A stretch of DNA of 64,000 nucleotides, from assembly GCF_001570525.1 (NCBI RefSeq), contig NZ_BBXC01000010.1, positions 186,001-250,000 on the forward strand, given 5' to 3'. The notes beneath the pieces were generated by a model. That model worked only from the letters and a program-made list of their open reading frames with translations. It ran no database searches and had not been told where the DNA came from. This DNA is from Herbidospora sakaeratensis. Lineage in GTDB: Bacteria; Actinomycetota; Actinomycetes; Streptosporangiales; Streptosporangiaceae. This document shows positions 14,446 through 21,261 of the stretch, piece by piece. Made by a program: the position numbers and the translations under genes. Numbering within the stretch: the first letter of the stretch is position 1; each line of letters starts with the position of its first letter.

Positions 14446-15090
14446 CTAGCGGAAGATGTCCTCCAGCCGCTCTGCCGAAATCGCCCGTTGGGCCCACACC
14501 TCGAGTTTTTCGGGGTCGGCGCATTCGGCGATCTGCGCGCGCATCTCGGCGGTGAGAGCGAAACCACGGTGCTCGACGGTGAACAGGAGCATCTTGCGGA
14601 AGGTTTCGGCCTGGCCGGCGGCGTAGTTCGTCACCGCGACGATGCTGTGGCGTTCGGGCTCGATCATCGTCATGAGAGTCTCCAGCTCCCTCTTCGCGGC
14701 CTCAGACAGACGCTTGGCCACTACTCAACGTACACGACGGTCTTGGACGGCTCGATGGCGTTCAGCGCGTGGACGACGGCTTCGAGCACGTCACGGTTGT
14801 GATCTCCGTGAACCGCCCCCGACAGGACCGCCAGTTCGGGCGACTCGCGGGCGACCTGGGGATCGGTGATGACGGGTACGGCGTCGGGGCCGATCACCAG
14901 CGGGGTCAGGGCAAGACCGGGGTGGCCGATCTGGATGGGCGCGGTGTAGCGGCGGGCGGTCTTGCGGTCGGGGGCGTAGACCACGAGTGTGGTCGGGCAG
15001 CGGCGGCGGGCCCAGAGATTGGCGACGTAGGGGAACCAGTCGTAGATCTTGTCTTTCTCGAAGCGAAGCTGGACTTCGGCGTAAACGATC
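14446..15090 (-). pseudogene. Frameshifted, N-terminally truncated Rpn/transposase-like (PD-(D/E)XK) protein
   Basis: Two overlapping reading frames together spell one protein of a family that is multicopy in Streptosporangiales. The upstream part reads YAEVQLRFEKDKIYDWFPYV, then CPTTLVVYAPDRKTARRY and PLVIGPDAVPVITDP, and ends VVYVE at a TAG (14721). The downstream part continues in another frame (AKRLSEAAKRELETLM to AERLEDIF). Restoring one base at the junction (14720-14723) would join them. The expected N-terminal ~90 residues are absent. Their place, beyond about 15090, is taken by antisense of a decayed glycosidase fragment. EVQL is probably the remnant nuclease-core E-x-Q motif. A non-functional remnant is likely. 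Confidence 0.7.
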
Positions 15091-15398
15091 CAATACCTGA
15101 ACGGGTCGACGTGGACGGCGGTGAACCCACGGTGGAGAACGTGGCCGTCCGCGCGGACGCTCGGCCGGGCGGACATGCCGTCGGCATGGAAGCTCCATTA
15201 CTGGAACGGGTCGTCCAACGTCGACCTGCCGGGCGCCTACGGGCTGGCGAAGAACGAGTTCAACTCGGTTTCGTTCACGACTGTGAGTGGCGCTGACCAG
15301 CACGGGAACGGCGTCGATGGGGCTGCTTGAGGTCAGGGCGTTCGCGAGTTGGTCAATCGGCGGGTGTGGCCGCACGATCGGGTGGCACCCACGCCGGT
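15087..15398 (+). pseudogene. Decayed duplicate of the 3' end of the large glycosidase gene
   Basis: Several blocks match the 3' part of the 9743-12979 gene in the same order and strand, with deletions between. 15087-15124 matches about 12352-12390, 15120-15147 matches about 12661-12690, and 15155-15360 matches about 12729-12987 with internal gaps. Recognisable peptides are PSAWKLHYWNGSSNVDLPGA and GLAKNEFNSVSFT (compare the intact PSAWKLQYWNGSSYVDLPGS). At least two deletions break the frame, and the copied terminator is also eroded. No start codon or promoter remains. The copy forms an imperfect direct repeat about 2.5 kb from its source. Confidence 0.82.
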
Positions 15399-16007: not shown

Positions 16008-17297
16008 GTGGCCGCTGATGAGAGAACGCCCGTGCCCGTATGGACACTCGCGACCGAAACCGTGAGCGTTCTGAACGTGCCCGGCGAGCAGGGCATGACG
16101 CCGGCCCGGCTGGCAGAACTGAGAACGGTTCTGGCGACACTCGCCGATTCCCCCATCGCCACTCTGGAAGCGCATCCGATGCCGGCCCAGCGTGACCGCA
16201 GCGGCGGAATCGTATTGCACGCGGCCAGCCCGCTCGCCCAGCAGTTGTCGCACCTCGTGGCTCAGACGGCGAAATCGGCGCCATCGACGCCGGGCCTCGT
16301 GGGCTCCGGTGACGTGCTCTACCGGATGGTCGTGCCGGCCAGGGTCGCCGCGCAACTCGGGAAAGGACTCATCCGGCCCATGGCCGCGAAGGCGGGAGGC
16401 ATCCGCGGTCCGCTGGTCGACTCCACGGGCACGATAGCAGCCAACGCCAGGTTCGTGCCCGTCACCGGCAAGACCACGGCCGGTGTGGCCGGTGTGGCCG
16501 GTGTGGCCGGCGTGGGGGCGTTCACGGTGGCCGCGCCCCTTGTGCTGATGGCCGTCGCGGTCGGCATCAGCGCCCACGCCGACCGCCAACGCCAGAAGGC
16601 GATCGAGCGGATCACCGATCTGCTGGAGCAGTTGGGCGAGGACAACGTCGAGACCGAGCGCAGTGAGCTCGACGGTTGCCGCGACGCGATCGACAAGGCG
16701 ACCTCGATCCTTCTCGACCAGGGCAGAATCGGCCTGTCATTGGGGCTCGACTCCTCGTCGTACGCGATCAGCACGGCGATCGAACGAGCCAAGCGCCGCC
16801 TCACGAAATGGCAGGACGCGCTGGCCGATTTGCCCGAGGGCCCGGTCGAAATCAGCGTGTTGACGAAATCGTTCCCCGGCGTCAACGAGGAAGGCGGCGC
16901 ATTCCGCGCCCACTTGGAGCTCGCACGACTCGCCATTGCCCTCAAACGCCGGGTGCTCGTGCTCCAGGCCGTCGAACACGCTCAACTGATGGCGGCCGAC
17001 AATCCGTTCAAGAGATTCATCGCGACCCTGCACGACGACGAACGTCGCGTCGGAGAACTGGAATCCGGCCTCGACGACGTCTTACTCCGGCTGTCGACTC
17101 TCGAACTCAAACGCTCCAGCGGTTTCCTGGGCGTCATGTTCACGCCGGGCGACGTCGACGACCTGCTCAAGGCCGTATATCGCCTGCGCGCCCTGGGCGA
17201 CGGCCTCAACAGGAGAGACGCCCAAGCCGACGTCGCGATCGATATCGAACGAAGCGGCGACGGATCGCTGGTGGTGTTCCCCGCGACCGCCGCGTGA
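16008..17297 (+). CDS. Hypothetical protein with central membrane segment and C-terminal helical domain
   Basis: A 429-residue protein of unknown function. The GTG start has GGGAGGGG about 7 bases upstream. The N-terminal ~155 residues are mixed. A hydrophobic stretch (~160-190) then follows, opening with a GVAGVAGVAGVG repeat and continuing as AFTVAAPLVLMAVAVGIS. The C-terminal half is mostly helical and charged (HADRQRQKAIERITDLLEQL, ELARLAIALKRRVLVLQAVE), suggesting coiled coils. It ends 18 bases before the convergent SDR pseudogene. The layout, a short amphipathic domain, one Gly/Ala-rich membrane span and long helices, recalls pore-forming or membrane-stress proteins, but no specific family is claimed. 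Confidence 0.6.
   Translation: MAADERTPVPVWTLATETVSVLNVPGEQGMTPARLAELRTVLATLADSPIATLEAHPMPAQRDRSGGIVLHAASPLAQQLSHLVAQTAKSAPSTPGLVGSGDVLYRMVVPARVAAQLGKGLIRPMAAKAGGIRGPLVDSTGTIAANARFVPVTGKTTAGVAGVAGVAGVGAFTVAAPLVLMAVAVGISAHADRQRQKAIERITDLLEQLGEDNVETERSELDGCRDAIDKATSILLDQGRIGLSLGLDSSSYAISTAIERAKRRLTKWQDALADLPEGPVEISVLTKSFPGVNEEGGAFRAHLELARLAIALKRRVLVLQAVEHAQLMAADNPFKRFIATLHDDERRVGELESGLDDVLLRLSTLELKRSSGFLGVMFTPGDVDDLLKAVYRLRALGDGLNRRDAQADVAIDIERSGDGSLVVFPATAA
16479..16514 (+). repeat. 9-bp tandem repeat inside a membrane-protein gene
   Basis: Four units of GCCGGTGTG (the last is GCCGGCGTG), encoding the repeated Ala-Gly-Val at the start of the predicted membrane segment. The unit length keeps the frame, so copy number could vary without breaking the gene. 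Confidence 0.8.
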
Positions 17298-18104: not shown

Positions 18105-19013
18105 ATGAACTTCGAGCTGCGCCACCTGGAGGGCTTCGTCGTTCTGGCCGAGGAGTTGCACTTCGCCCGCGCCGCCGAACGTCTCCACATCGCCCAGCCG
18201 GCCCTGTCGCAGCAGATCCAGAAGCTGGAGTCGGTGCTGGGCGTCGAACTCCTCATCAGGGAGAAACGCCGCACCCGCCTGACCCACGTCGGTGAGCTCT
18301 TCCTGGTCGAAGCCCGCCGCACCCTCGATCAGGCCAAGGTCGCCCAGTCGGTGGCAGACCGGGCCAAACGCGGGGAACTGGGGCGGTTGAGGGTGGCGTA
18401 CATGCCGACGACCTCGTCGGGCCCCTTCCTCGCCATGCTCGCCCACTTCCGCGACCGCCACCCCGGTGTGGAGATCGACCTGCTCGAACTCCCGCTGGGC
18501 ACCACCGGCCGCCCGCCCGACGTGGACGTCGCCTTCATCTCCCGCATCGGCGACATCGTCTGCCCGGAGGGCGTGATCCTCTCGGTCGAACCGTTCATCG
18601 CCGCCCTACCGGTAAAGCACCGCCTGGCGTCGAGTCCGGTCATCGAGATCGCCGACCTGGCCGGCGACCCGTTCGTCTTCCTCGACCTCGCCGACTGCGC
18701 CGAGTGGGCCGAGACGGTGCACGACATGTGCACGACCGCCGGCTTCCGTCCCCAGGTCACCCATCGCGTCTGCCAGGTCTCCACCCAGCTCATGAGCGTC
18801 GCGGCCGGGCTGGGCGTCGCCCTGGTCCCCGCCTCCACGGAGGGGCTGCGGCGGGAGGGCGTCGCCTTCGTCCCGCTGAAGGGCCCGACGGCCACGATCA
18901 CCGCCGCGGCCCTGTGGCACGCCTCCGATCCGTCACCGGTCCTGGCGAGGTTCGTCGCGAGCCTGCGTACGGAAGACGTTCGTGGCATGCCAGGCGAAGT
19001 AGTGCCTGCTTGA
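18105..19013 (+). CDS. LysR-family transcriptional regulator
   Basis: A 302-residue LTTR. The N-terminal winged helix reads FELRHLEGFVVLAEELHFAR, then AAERLHIAQPALSQQIQKLE. A substrate-binding domain follows (LRVAYMPTTSSGPFLAMLAH to the C-terminus). It is transcribed away from the SDR gene across a 71-base gap, so it probably regulates that gene. Its last 81 bases overlap the convergent HNH endonuclease gene. Confidence 0.9.
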   Translation: MNFELRHLEGFVVLAEELHFARAAERLHIAQPALSQQIQKLESVLGVELLIREKRRTRLTHVGELFLVEARRTLDQAKVAQSVADRAKRGELGRLRVAYMPTTSSGPFLAMLAHFRDRHPGVEIDLLELPLGTTGRPPDVDVAFISRIGDIVCPEGVILSVEPFIAALPVKHRLASSPVIEIADLAGDPFVFLDLADCAEWAETVHDMCTTAGFRPQVTHRVCQVSTQLMSVAAGLGVALVPASTEGLRREGVAFVPLKGPTATITAAALWHASDPSPVLARFVASLRTEDVRGMPGEVVPA

Positions 19014-19877
19014 GTCACTCCACGCCGCCACGGCGCGTCCGGCCAGGCGGCTCGCGTGCTCGTGCAGGCGGGGGTGGCCGACGAGCTCCGGACTGAGCTC
19101 GACCAGGCCGCCGTCCGAGACCTTGATGTAGCCGTGCTCGTAGAGGCTGTCGCAGCCAAGTGTGCAGGCCAGCATGGCGACGTTGTCGAGATCGCGCCGT
19201 TCCCGCTCCTCACAGTCGGTGCGCCTCTTGATGTGTGCGGCCACGAGGAACGTCTCCGGCAGTTCCGCGCCGCACAGGGCGCACCGGGCTCCACCGTTGA
19301 TCAGCAGCCGCCGGAGCATCGCCTGCTCGCCGCGCCTGGCGACCATGGCGTTGTAGGTCAGCGAGCCGGTGAAGTCGCGCCGGGCCGCCGCCACGTCGGC
19401 CAGACCGACCGCTCCAAGCAGCGCGGCTTCGTCGGCGTCGTCGAAGTAGTCGTGCAGCAACTGGTCGACGACGAGGTCGGCGGCGGCTCGCGACCGGGTG
19501 AAAAGATCATGGAGGGGGCGGGTGAACCCACCCCTGATGGGCGGGTCCGCGGAGTTCAACCACGTCAAGTGGTGGTCGCGGGGCGGCGGTTCGGACAGCT
19601 CCCAGAGCCGGGTGTTGTGCAAGGCGACAAAGGGATACTGCGGGGTCGCGGCGTCGCCCGCCTTGCCGAACTTCCTGATCAGGCCGGCGACCGCTTTCTT
19701 GAGCTCAGGCCATTCCGCCATTCGCTCTTCGCCCCGCACGGCTCTGCCGATGGCCCACAGCAGGGTCAGCGGTTGGTGGCGTTTACGGGAGCCGTCCCGC
19801 GAAGGCTGGACGTTCAGCTTGATCACCGACGCCAGGACCGCCTCGATGGGGCTGACCGGATCTTCCTCAAGTTCCAC
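18933..19877 (-). CDS. SBD-HNH endonuclease, probable phosphorothioate-dependent (type IV-like) restriction enzyme
   Basis: A 314-residue protein from GTG 19877. The N-terminal half resembles the sulfur-binding domain (SBD) of ScoMcrA/SprMcrA: RHQPLTLLWAIGRAV, then PQYPFVALHNTRLWEL, which matches the family pattern hPeYPFwrLqnDgLWEv. The C-terminal half is an HNH fold with a zinc knuckle: CALCG, AAHIKRRTDCEERERRDLDN, then LACTLGCDSLYEHGYIKV. SBD proteins read DNA phosphorothioate marks made by Dnd systems and cut nearby. No dnd genes are in the window, so this would act against modified incoming DNA. The 3' end overlaps lysR by 81 bases. Function is inferred from remembered motifs. Confidence 0.7.
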   Translation of the reverse strand: MELEEDPVSPIEAVLASVIKLNVQPSRDGSRKRHQPLTLLWAIGRAVRGEERMAEWPELKKAVAGLIRKFGKAGDAATPQYPFVALHNTRLWELSEPPPRDHHLTWLNSADPPIRGGFTRPLHDLFTRSRAAADLVVDQLLHDYFDDADEAALLGAVGLADVAAARRDFTGSLTYNAMVARRGEQAMLRRLLINGGARCALCGAELPETFLVAAHIKRRTDCEERERRDLDNVAMLACTLGCDSLYEHGYIKVSDGGLVELSPELVGHPRLHEHASRLAGRAVAAWSDSSRHYFAWHATNVFRTQARDEPRQDR

Positions 19878-19898
19878 TTCTGGTGATCGTTCACGACC

Positions 19899-19933
19899 GG
19901 GGCCGTGTCACACCTCTTGTGCGACACGGCCCC
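19899..19933 (-). terminator. Terminator of the xylanase gene
   Basis: GGGGCCGTGTC (19899-19909) pairs perfectly with GACACGGCCCC (19923-19933), a strong 11-bp stem just downstream of the GH10 stop on the minus strand. Confidence 0.8.
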
Positions 19934-19941
19934 TTCGCGGA

Positions 19942-21108
19942 CTAACGACGAGGTCTGGGCTGGACGTGCGGCGGCCCCGCGAACACCAGATCAGCCTTGA
20001 TCGAGTTGTAAGCCCGCTTCGGCTGGTAGTTCTCGTCGTACAGCGTCGCCAGTCCCTCCGGCGGGTTGGTGAACCACGTCGGCACCCACGAGTGCTTGTC
20101 CGTGAAGCCCCACACCGTGTACGACAGACAGTTCCGGTTCAGCAGACACGCCTGCATCAGCACGCTGAAGTTCGACGCCGACGCCTGCAGACGCGGGTTG
20201 ATCTCGTTCGAATCCCCGGCCTGCACCCCGGCCGTCATCTGGCTCCGCACGTCGACCTCGGTCAGCGCCGAGACCATGCCCAGGTCGGAGAACGCGTCCA
20301 GGACCTCCTTCACCTGGAAGGTGTCGAAGTTCCCGTACTGGGTGCCCAGGTGCCCCTGTGATCCGAAGCCGTCGATCGGCACGCCCTGGGCGCGCAGGTT
20401 CTTGATCAGGTTGTAGATGAACCAGACCTTGTCGGAGGGGCCGCGGTCGCCGAAGGCCTCCATGTTGTAGTCGTTGTAGAACAGCAACGCGTGGGGGTCG
20501 GCGGCGCGGGCCCAGCGGAAGGCGTCGGCGATGTAGGTCGGGCCGAGGTTCTGGGCCCAGAAGCCCTTCAGGTGGATCTCCGAGGGGGTGTCCCACGGGT
20601 CGCTGGCGGCCTCGTTGACGACGTCCCACTGCCAGATCTTGCCCTTGTAGCGCTTCACCACGGTCGTGATGTGCTTCTTCAGCAGGTCGCGCAGTTCGGT
20701 CTTGGAGATCGTGCCGTTGGCCACGCCTTCGGTCAGCCACGCCGGCAGCTGGTTGTGCCACACGAGCACGTGCCCGCGGACCTTCTGGTTGTTCTTCTTC
20801 GCGAAGTCCATCAACGCGTCGGCGGGGCCCCAGTTGTAGGTGCCGCGCGTGGGTTCGAGGCTCTCCCACTTCATGGCGTTCTCGTGGGTGACGCTGTTGA
20901 ACTCCCGGGTGGCGATGGCCTTGTACTGCGGCTCCGCGAGGGCGTCGTTGCTGATCGCCGTGCCGATCGCGAGGTTGTGCCGGGCGGCCAGGGCTTTCAG
21001 GCTCTGGTCCTGTACGGCCGGGGGCCGCCCGTTAGCCGACACGGGTCCCTGGCTGAGGACAGCCACGAGTCCGAGCGCCGTGGCCGCGATGACCACCAGT
21101 CGTCTCAT
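19942..21108 (-). CDS. Secreted GH10 endo-1,4-beta-xylanase
   Basis: A 388-residue secreted enzyme from ATG 21108, with GGAGAGAG upstream and signal peptide MRRLVVIAATALGLVAVLSQ...SANG. The GH10 barrel fills the rest. The catalytic acid/base is Glu166 in WDVVNEAASD and the nucleophile is Glu284 in SALTEVDVRS. RGHVLVWHNQLPAWL and YTVWGFTDKHSWVP are also hallmarks. It cleaves internal bonds of xylan outside the cell and has no carbohydrate-binding module. The gene stands alone between two terminators and has palindromic operators in its promoter region, so sugar-responsive control by a LacI-type regulator is likely. Confidence 0.95.
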   Translation of the reverse strand: MRRLVVIAATALGLVAVLSQGPVSANGRPPAVQDQSLKALAARHNLAIGTAISNDALAEPQYKAIATREFNSVTHENAMKWESLEPTRGTYNWGPADALMDFAKKNNQKVRGHVLVWHNQLPAWLTEGVANGTISKTELRDLLKKHITTVVKRYKGKIWQWDVVNEAASDPWDTPSEIHLKGFWAQNLGPTYIADAFRWARAADPHALLFYNDYNMEAFGDRGPSDKVWFIYNLIKNLRAQGVPIDGFGSQGHLGTQYGNFDTFQVKEVLDAFSDLGMVSALTEVDVRSQMTAGVQAGDSNEINPRLQASASNFSVLMQACLLNRNCLSYTVWGFTDKHSWVPTWFTNPPEGLATLYDENYQPKRAYNSIKADLVFAGPPHVQPRPRR

Positions 21109-21143
21109 CGAACTCTCTCCTTTGGGGGTCAGGCTCCAAAATG

Positions 21144-21162
21144 TTTCGGAGATGTTCCGAAA
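21144..21162. promoter_or_regulatory. Xylanase operator: 7-bp inverted repeat
   Basis: TTTCGGA (21144-21150), GATGT, TCCGAAA (21156-21162): a perfect inverted repeat 36 bases upstream of the GH10 ATG. The CGAAA/TTTCG theme fits LacI-family xylan regulators of actinobacteria. Confidence 0.65.
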
Positions 21163-21212
21163 TCGGATGCTAACCGTCTCGGGCAAAGTGAGAAAGACCC
21201 AGTTTGGGAAGC

Positions 21213-21224
21213 CGAAAAGTTTCG
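21213..21224. promoter_or_regulatory. Second CGAAA-N2-TTTCG palindrome between xylanase and metH
   Basis: CGAAAAGTTTCG is a perfect CGAAA/TTTCG inverted repeat with a 2-base spacer, about 100 bases upstream of the GH10 start and 7 bases before a TTGACA hexamer (21231-21236) that faces metH. It probably belongs to the xylanase promoter. Confidence 0.5.
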
Positions 21225-21261
21225 ATTGTCTTGACACGCGAGGCGTTTGTTAAACTAGTCG

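Follow-up and report, generated by a model that had tools for sequence, protein, structure and literature searches.

The locus

The open reading frame at positions 18933-19877 of the window, that is, of the entire 64,000-nucleotide stretch of DNA analysed here from the soil actinobacterium Herbidospora sakaeratensis (family Streptosporangiaceae), is read from 19877 down to 18933 on the minus strand, begins with a GTG codon and encodes a protein of 314 amino acids that consists of an N-terminal sulfur-binding domain (SBD; residues about 9-165, 19383..19853, minus strand) and a C-terminal HNH nuclease domain (residues 178-305, 18963..19346, minus strand). The sequence-only reading had described this gene as solitary, and indeed it stands alone, a search of the genome (8.6 Mb in 35 contigs) giving a single match. 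The GTG start is found also at the matching place in the frames from H. galbida (L039) and H. daliensis (L040). Downstream, the gene converges with that of a LysR regulator recognized by Pfam (18105..19013, plus strand), the last codons of which overlap its 3' end; upstream, on the same strand, lies a GH10 xylanase gene (19942..21237, minus strand; Pfam Glyco_hydro_10, E=9.7e-97). Pfam assigned no family to the neighbouring ORFs 14721-15176 and 16008-17297. Between the GH10 gene and the gene of interest, there is a strong hairpin (19899..19933, minus strand) that ends about 21 nt before the GTG codon; RNA folding of the surrounding 91 nt (19870-19960, minus strand) gave an energy of -46.3 kcal/mol, with a z of -4.9. 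By eye, H. galbida, H. daliensis and H. solisilvae have related hairpins in the corresponding position, as does a congener (G149) in which the nuclease gene is missing.

Sulfur-binding domain and HNH nuclease domain

The assignment of the N-terminal half to the SBDs, previously made on the basis of two motifs that are both present, is borne out by comparison of sequences as well as structures. A phmmer search of the PDB matched residues 26-161 to the SBD of SprMcrA (7cc9) with E=2.2e-21 and also retrieved the SBD of ScoMcrA (5zmo; E=2.3e-9). The family profile NCBIfam NF045808 (PT-DNA_restrict) matches residues 27-303 with E=5.7e-21, but the score of 74.9 bits is below the curated cut-off of 180 bits, so the protein is not filed under that model. 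In a full-length AF2 model built from an alignment of the window protein with 22 relatives (mean pLDDT 73), the SBD is well scored, with ten-residue blocks at pLDDT 77-97 over residues 11-160, whereas much of the HNH half is poor, so the latter was folded separately. Foldseek matched the model to the SBD chains of SprMcrA, with E values between 4.4e-10 and 8.1e-9, a TM of 0.77-0.80 by target length and 36% of the residues identical in the structure-based alignment, followed by ScoMcrA and then by the Hga SBD; the structural comparison envisaged in the sequence-only reading thus came out in favour of an SBD fold.

The roles of pocket residues in SBDs are described in PMC7470945 and PMC6224610. 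According to the former, the sulfur in SprMcrA is seated among Y31, Q32, Y78, P79 and A82, the phosphates are gripped by R29, R73 and R85, and the bases are read by H102-G103-D104; both sources derive the base contacts of ScoMcrA from a differently placed loop. When the window residues were mapped on the SprMcrA-DNA structure and compared across 23 aligned SBDs, the sulfur pocket was found to consist of H34-Q35 (19773..19778, minus strand; Y31-Q32 in SprMcrA, H116-R117 in ScoMcrA) together with Y81, P82 and A85 (19623..19637, minus strand; Y78, P79 and A82 in SprMcrA). Each of these residues, including the histidine of the ScoMcrA type, is known from one or the other of the two enzymes, and none falls outside this set; H34, Q35 and P82 are present in 23/23 of the aligned domains, Y81 in 12/23 and A85 in 7/23. 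The earlier suggestion that the pocket departs from the consensus (VALHNTRLWEL versus FwrLqnDgLWEv) therefore did not hold, and the mapping on SprMcrA led us to reject a diverged pocket as the origin of any new specificity.

The part that has changed is the DNA-contacting surface. Among the phosphate-contacting and basic loop-34 residues, R29, R73, R75 and R85 of SprMcrA are replaced by K32, A76, T78 and N88, respectively, and in the base-contact loop (residues 97-105; 19563..19589, minus strand), H102 is aligned with D101, whereas G103 and D104 fall in a gap, so an H-G-D readout loop of the SprMcrA type was not found in the window protein, with the proviso that the alignment of such a short loop is uncertain. 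The position of G103 is occupied by glycine in 17/23 aligned SBDs and by a gap in the window protein and in H. galbida; the H. solisilvae protein contains the letters HGD near the motif, but the alignment, equally uncertain in so short a loop, does not place them on it. As judged from the alignment, the sulfur pocket is retained, fewer contacts to the backbone are left and the loop that reads the bases is shorter, and the shortened loop suggests a sequence preference or an affinity unlike that of SprMcrA. The new sequence preference proposed previously hence remains plausible, for a reason other than the one given, because the sulfur pocket is conserved and it is the base-reading loop that is altered. 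Binding of phosphorothioate (PT) DNA by this SBD could also be weak, given that the window protein has no clear equivalents of H102 and G103 and that, in PMC7470945, the SprMcrA replacement G103A nearly abolished binding and H102A made it 370-fold weaker.

In the C-terminal half, residues 160-314 matched the structure of the restriction endonuclease VcaM4I from Vibrio campbellii (6YEX) in a phmmer search (E=1.9e-5), and an AF2 model of the HNH half alone, built from 21 sequences (mean pLDDT 87.9), had the same protein as the clear best Foldseek match (E=3e-7, TM 0.62 by query length), with the runner-up protein reaching only E 0.034. In VcaM4I, the replacements H224A, D250A and D254A drastically impair activity, and N241 is structural, according to PMC7897488; the alignment places H215 (19233..19235, minus strand), the predicted general base, at the position of H224, and N232, D243 and E247 (within 19137..19184, minus strand) at those of N241, D250 and D254. 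Together with C199 and C202, which form a CxxC motif (19272..19283, minus strand), and with C238 and C242 (within the same 19137..19184 segment), H215, D243 and E247 are invariant in 14/14 HNH modules, and N232 is nearly so. The zinc-knuckle type of HNH noted in the sequence-only reading is supported by this invariance, the four cysteines being a putative zinc site. The relationship to VcaM4I thus extends to the HNH fold, the catalytic H/N/D and an acidic residue at the place of D254, with the four cysteines and their probable metal site as a difference. VcaM4I reads 5mC and 5hmC via an EVE domain; in the window protein, no EVE domain was found at the N-terminus, where the SBD lies instead.

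SprMcrA (PDB 7CC9/7CCD/7CCJ) has the same two-part plan and an equivalent sulfur pocket; compared with it, the window protein has lost phosphate-contacting arginine as well as the full H-G-D loop, and the published HNH of SprMcrA is of the H-N-R kind (PMC7461809), unlike the H-N-D with the acidic E247 found here. The comparison with ScoMcrA (head-SBD-SRA-HNH; 5ZMM), made outside the HNH halves, reveals the same SBD fold, with H116 and P165 corresponding to H34 and P82, but the window protein lacks the head, has Q35 in place of R117 and is devoid of the SRA domain: Pfam detected no SRA, and only a short linker (about residues 166-177) separates the SBD from the HNH. The N-domain of EcoKMcrA (NEco) is absent as well, in contrast to the homologues from H. 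solisilvae and Acrocarpospora considered below. Within the bacterial family, 11 HNH modules that follow N-terminal domains of other kinds are 39-48% identical to the HNH half; one of these domains (L015) is the VcaM4I EVE domain by sequence (E=1.2e-13), whereas the N-terminal domains of two others (L010 and L025) have no PDB match below 0.03. By sequence comparison, the HNH half is apparently a nuclease swapped in relative to the other SBD-HNH proteins compared.

The combination of an SBD with this HNH has a narrow distribution. A scan of named-genome contigs with two exact peptide patterns yielded 25 loci, 4 of which have it, namely, those from H. galbida, H. daliensis, H. solisilvae and Acrocarpospora corrugata; in most of the remaining SBD loci, the HNH follows the pattern CQICG...LLCLCPN.H.LFD, whereas that of L050 and L058 is of yet another kind, and by eye, no HNH motif is seen in L061 or L062. 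In L061 (L061:7920-9272, from Frankia), the C-terminal part looks PD-(D/E)XK-like and follows an SRA-like stretch, again by eye; Pfam found no family in it. Searches that score only some candidates per genome, so that rarer cases may escape, detected the combination in at least 5/297 genomes of the family among the matches listed (G000, G033, G083, G163 and G027) and in at least 2/394 genomes of the class, both Herbidospora. Inspection of 26 weaker full-length family matches identified 24 with a CxxHH-type HNH, two unclassed and none of the window type, and among all collected loci, HQPLTL[LV]W and the GCD-type HNH occur in one frame only in those five genomes and their named twins. These searches, which were limited by sampling and by the patterns used, turned up the combination in no genus other than Herbidospora and Acrocarpospora. 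Among the open PMC papers listed, no title or opening of an abstract describes the fusion of an SBD with a VcaM4I-type HNH or with an EcoKMcrA-like domain, and a literature search on Herbidospora and restriction endonucleases returned no paper.

The idea that the entire gene came from a phage or a plasmid is rejected because only the HNH half has matches in plasmid (15/72,556) and phage (2/50,697) records. In IMG/VR, 33 viral-contig loci (L106-L138) match the four-cysteine HNH module; visual inspection of 18 showed a different N-terminal part in place of an SBD in 17, the remaining locus (L130) being fragmentary. One of the viral loci, L133, resembles NEco followed by an unfamiliar domain and the HNH, and Pfam recognized no family there. 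A scan of IMG/VR with one peptide pattern for the SBD matched 21 stretches, none of which was confirmed as such a domain.

Predicted activity and competing readings

We propose, with a probability of roughly 80%, that the window protein is a stand-alone type IV, PT-dependent (that is, modification-dependent) restriction endonuclease, because its N-terminal half is an SBD by sequence and structure, the sulfur pocket is kept and the HNH is of the VcaM4I type, with the catalytic residues in place, and because the gene is under purifying selection in comparison with two congeners. SBD-HNH enzymes described previously restrict PT DNA or cleave it (PMC7461809), and by analogy, the gene product probably cuts incoming DNA with a sulfur-marked backbone. 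The kind of enzyme is already known; what appears to be new, from sequences and models, is the union of an SprMcrA-like reader that has a reduced base loop with a VcaM4I-like nuclease. In this proposal, the SBD would take the Rp sulfur of an incoming phosphorothioate link into the hydrophobic pocket formed by H34, Q35, Y81, P82 and A85, and this binding would place or release the HNH half, which then would cut some way off the mark, D243 and E247 holding the metal ion and H215 activating a water molecule. Dimerisation and release from auto-inhibition might be involved as well, by analogy with what has been published on VcaM4I.

In a defence role, a host without dndC would be safe, whereas the DNA of Dnd-positive relatives would be cut. 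The sequence-only reading had seen no dnd genes in the 64 kb, which we confirmed and, for dndC, extended to the whole genome: a search with the dndC profile (TIGR03183) gave no match, and the four matches to the PP-loop family PF01507 are three CysD and one CysH. A co-resident Dnd system is accordingly rejected as far as dndC and these PP-loop proteins are concerned, none of the four being DndC- or SspD-like. The Dnd-positive neighbours that had been surmised have counterparts among the relatives: dndC scores above the cut-off in 21/297 genomes of the family, so PT-modifying relatives are present, and in 0/7 members of the genus. A family-wide anti-correlation between SBD genes and dndC is nevertheless rejected. 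Among the matches listed, in exploratory counts with an E-value split that mixes HQP and HKP types, dndC accompanies SBD-covering matches below 1e-13 in 1/43 genomes compared with 20/254 of the others (p=0.33, not significant), whereas weaker SBD-HNH matches are commoner in dndC-positive genomes (9/55 vs 12/242, p=0.007). The weak matches that were inspected are mostly of the HKP type, as are G243, G231 and G261 in the stronger set. Because weak SBD-HNH matches are commoner, not rarer, in dndC-positive genomes of the family, avoidance of Dnd hosts by PT-dependent nucleases is not a general rule. In one genome of the family (G068), an SBD-HNH gene (L103, G068:C887:9146-10194) that scores 327.9 bits with NF045808 lies about 17 kb from dndC (G068:C887:26824-28131) on one contig; 5/6 inspected SBD-HNH genes from dndC-positive genomes (L099-L103, L105) are of the HKP type, and the remaining one (L099) is HRA.

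The most serious competing explanation, which we consider unlikely, is that the sulfur dependence of the SBD is lost or changed, so that the domain binds DNA weakly or reads some other feature, for instance a modification of another kind or unmodified DNA at particular sites, with the HNH acting as a modification-dependent nuclease that has some other trigger. The gap at the G103 equivalent, a position at which a single replacement is so damaging in SprMcrA, would fit such a change, as would the EVE and other N-terminal domains to which the same HNH module is otherwise joined. The three invariant pocket residues and the predicted SprMcrA-like fold speak against it; moreover, ScoMcrA, with its differently placed base-contact loop, demonstrates that loop changes occur among working SBDs, and the dN/dS of the SBD half is 0.34 in comparison with H. 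galbida and 0.16 with H. daliensis.

Less probable still is a decaying or unexpressed relic. Expression of the gene may be low, given the strong hairpin before the start codon and the failure to find a sigma-70-type promoter upstream, but the frame is unbroken in the window species and in three named Herbidospora species, the catalytic residues are kept, and the gene is under purifying selection, with whole-gene dN/dS of 0.41 in comparison with H. galbida and 0.20 with H. daliensis (0.20-0.41 among the three closest) and 0.49 with H. solisilvae (0.45-0.49 for these three against H. solisilvae).

Within the genus, the gene behaves as a presence/absence cassette, a feature that, like the VcaM4I kinship of the HNH half, goes beyond the sequence-only reading. 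Three congeners have it at the same place, between the convergent LysR gene and the GH10 gene, which is followed by metH, and in all carriers, including the window species, the 3' end of the LysR frame overlaps that of the nuclease frame. The SDR-LysR flank is present in 7/7 genomes of the genus; the nuclease gene is found in 4, and the site is empty in 3 (blastn of L074-L076, with the junctions read). In G130, the flanks meet and 18956..19923 of the window is missing; in G109 and G149, 13 and 43 bases, respectively, separate the flanks, with borders at 18964/19946 and 18979/19946. Translation of the junctions by eye gives the LysR proteins of G130 and G149 a different short C-terminal tail. 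The cassette borders (18916-19000 and 19886-19965) share no word longer than 6 bp. This clean presence/absence pattern and the altered lysR tail might suggest a free-standing, homing-type selfish HNH gene that inserts between lysR and the GH10 gene, yet both halves of the protein resemble modification-dependent restriction enzymes and the borders lack a longer common word, so we regard this as the least probable explanation of all.

Alleles at one chromosomal site

The H. solisilvae allele may point to variation in what is read. Compared with the window protein, the SBD half is 51% identical, the HNH half 78% and LysR 90%, and because of this disparity, we conclude that the reader half either was replaced or diverged much faster; the dN/dS of the SBD half in this comparison is 0.56, which implies weaker constraint on the reader there. 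The homologues from H. solisilvae and Acrocarpospora begin with an additional domain, some 145 residues long and followed by the SBD (L041:7572-8018 in H. solisilvae and L042:969-1457 in A. corrugata, both on the plus strand), that resembles the N-domain of EcoKMcrA: a single-sequence phmmer search gave only 0.024, whereas a two-sequence profile reached E=1.8e-8. The PADLOC mREase_IV model PDLC03656 (277 residues) matches this domain of L042 at 1.2e-4 and does not match that of L041 (0.001). PMC7145662 describes N119, K122 and the 5mC-pocket residue W31 of NEco; by eye, the extra domains have equivalents of N119 and K122, and W31 is replaced by A and S. These proteins could represent dual readers of methylcytosine and phosphorothioate on one nuclease, with the pocket tryptophan of NEco lost.

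Tentatively, and with more doubt than confidence, one may envisage a single site at which the nuclease half is kept and the reader is swapped or reshaped: an SBD with a cut-down loop in the window species, H. galbida and H. daliensis, possibly recognizing phosphorothioate with a new or no sequence preference, as opposed to an EcoKMcrA-like N-domain that in H. solisilvae precedes a different SBD, making a single enzyme that would answer to methylated cytosine as well as to backbone sulfur. In a broader perspective, the protein described here indicates that two parts already familiar from other enzymes, a sulfur-reading domain and a VcaM4I-type nuclease, can occur together. The orthologous alleles, only some of which include the EcoKMcrA-like domain and which have longer or shorter base loops, are natural material for testing the sequence preference of PT recognition and, if the prediction is true, a PT-specific nuclease that prefers new sites would be of use in mapping DNA phosphorothioation.
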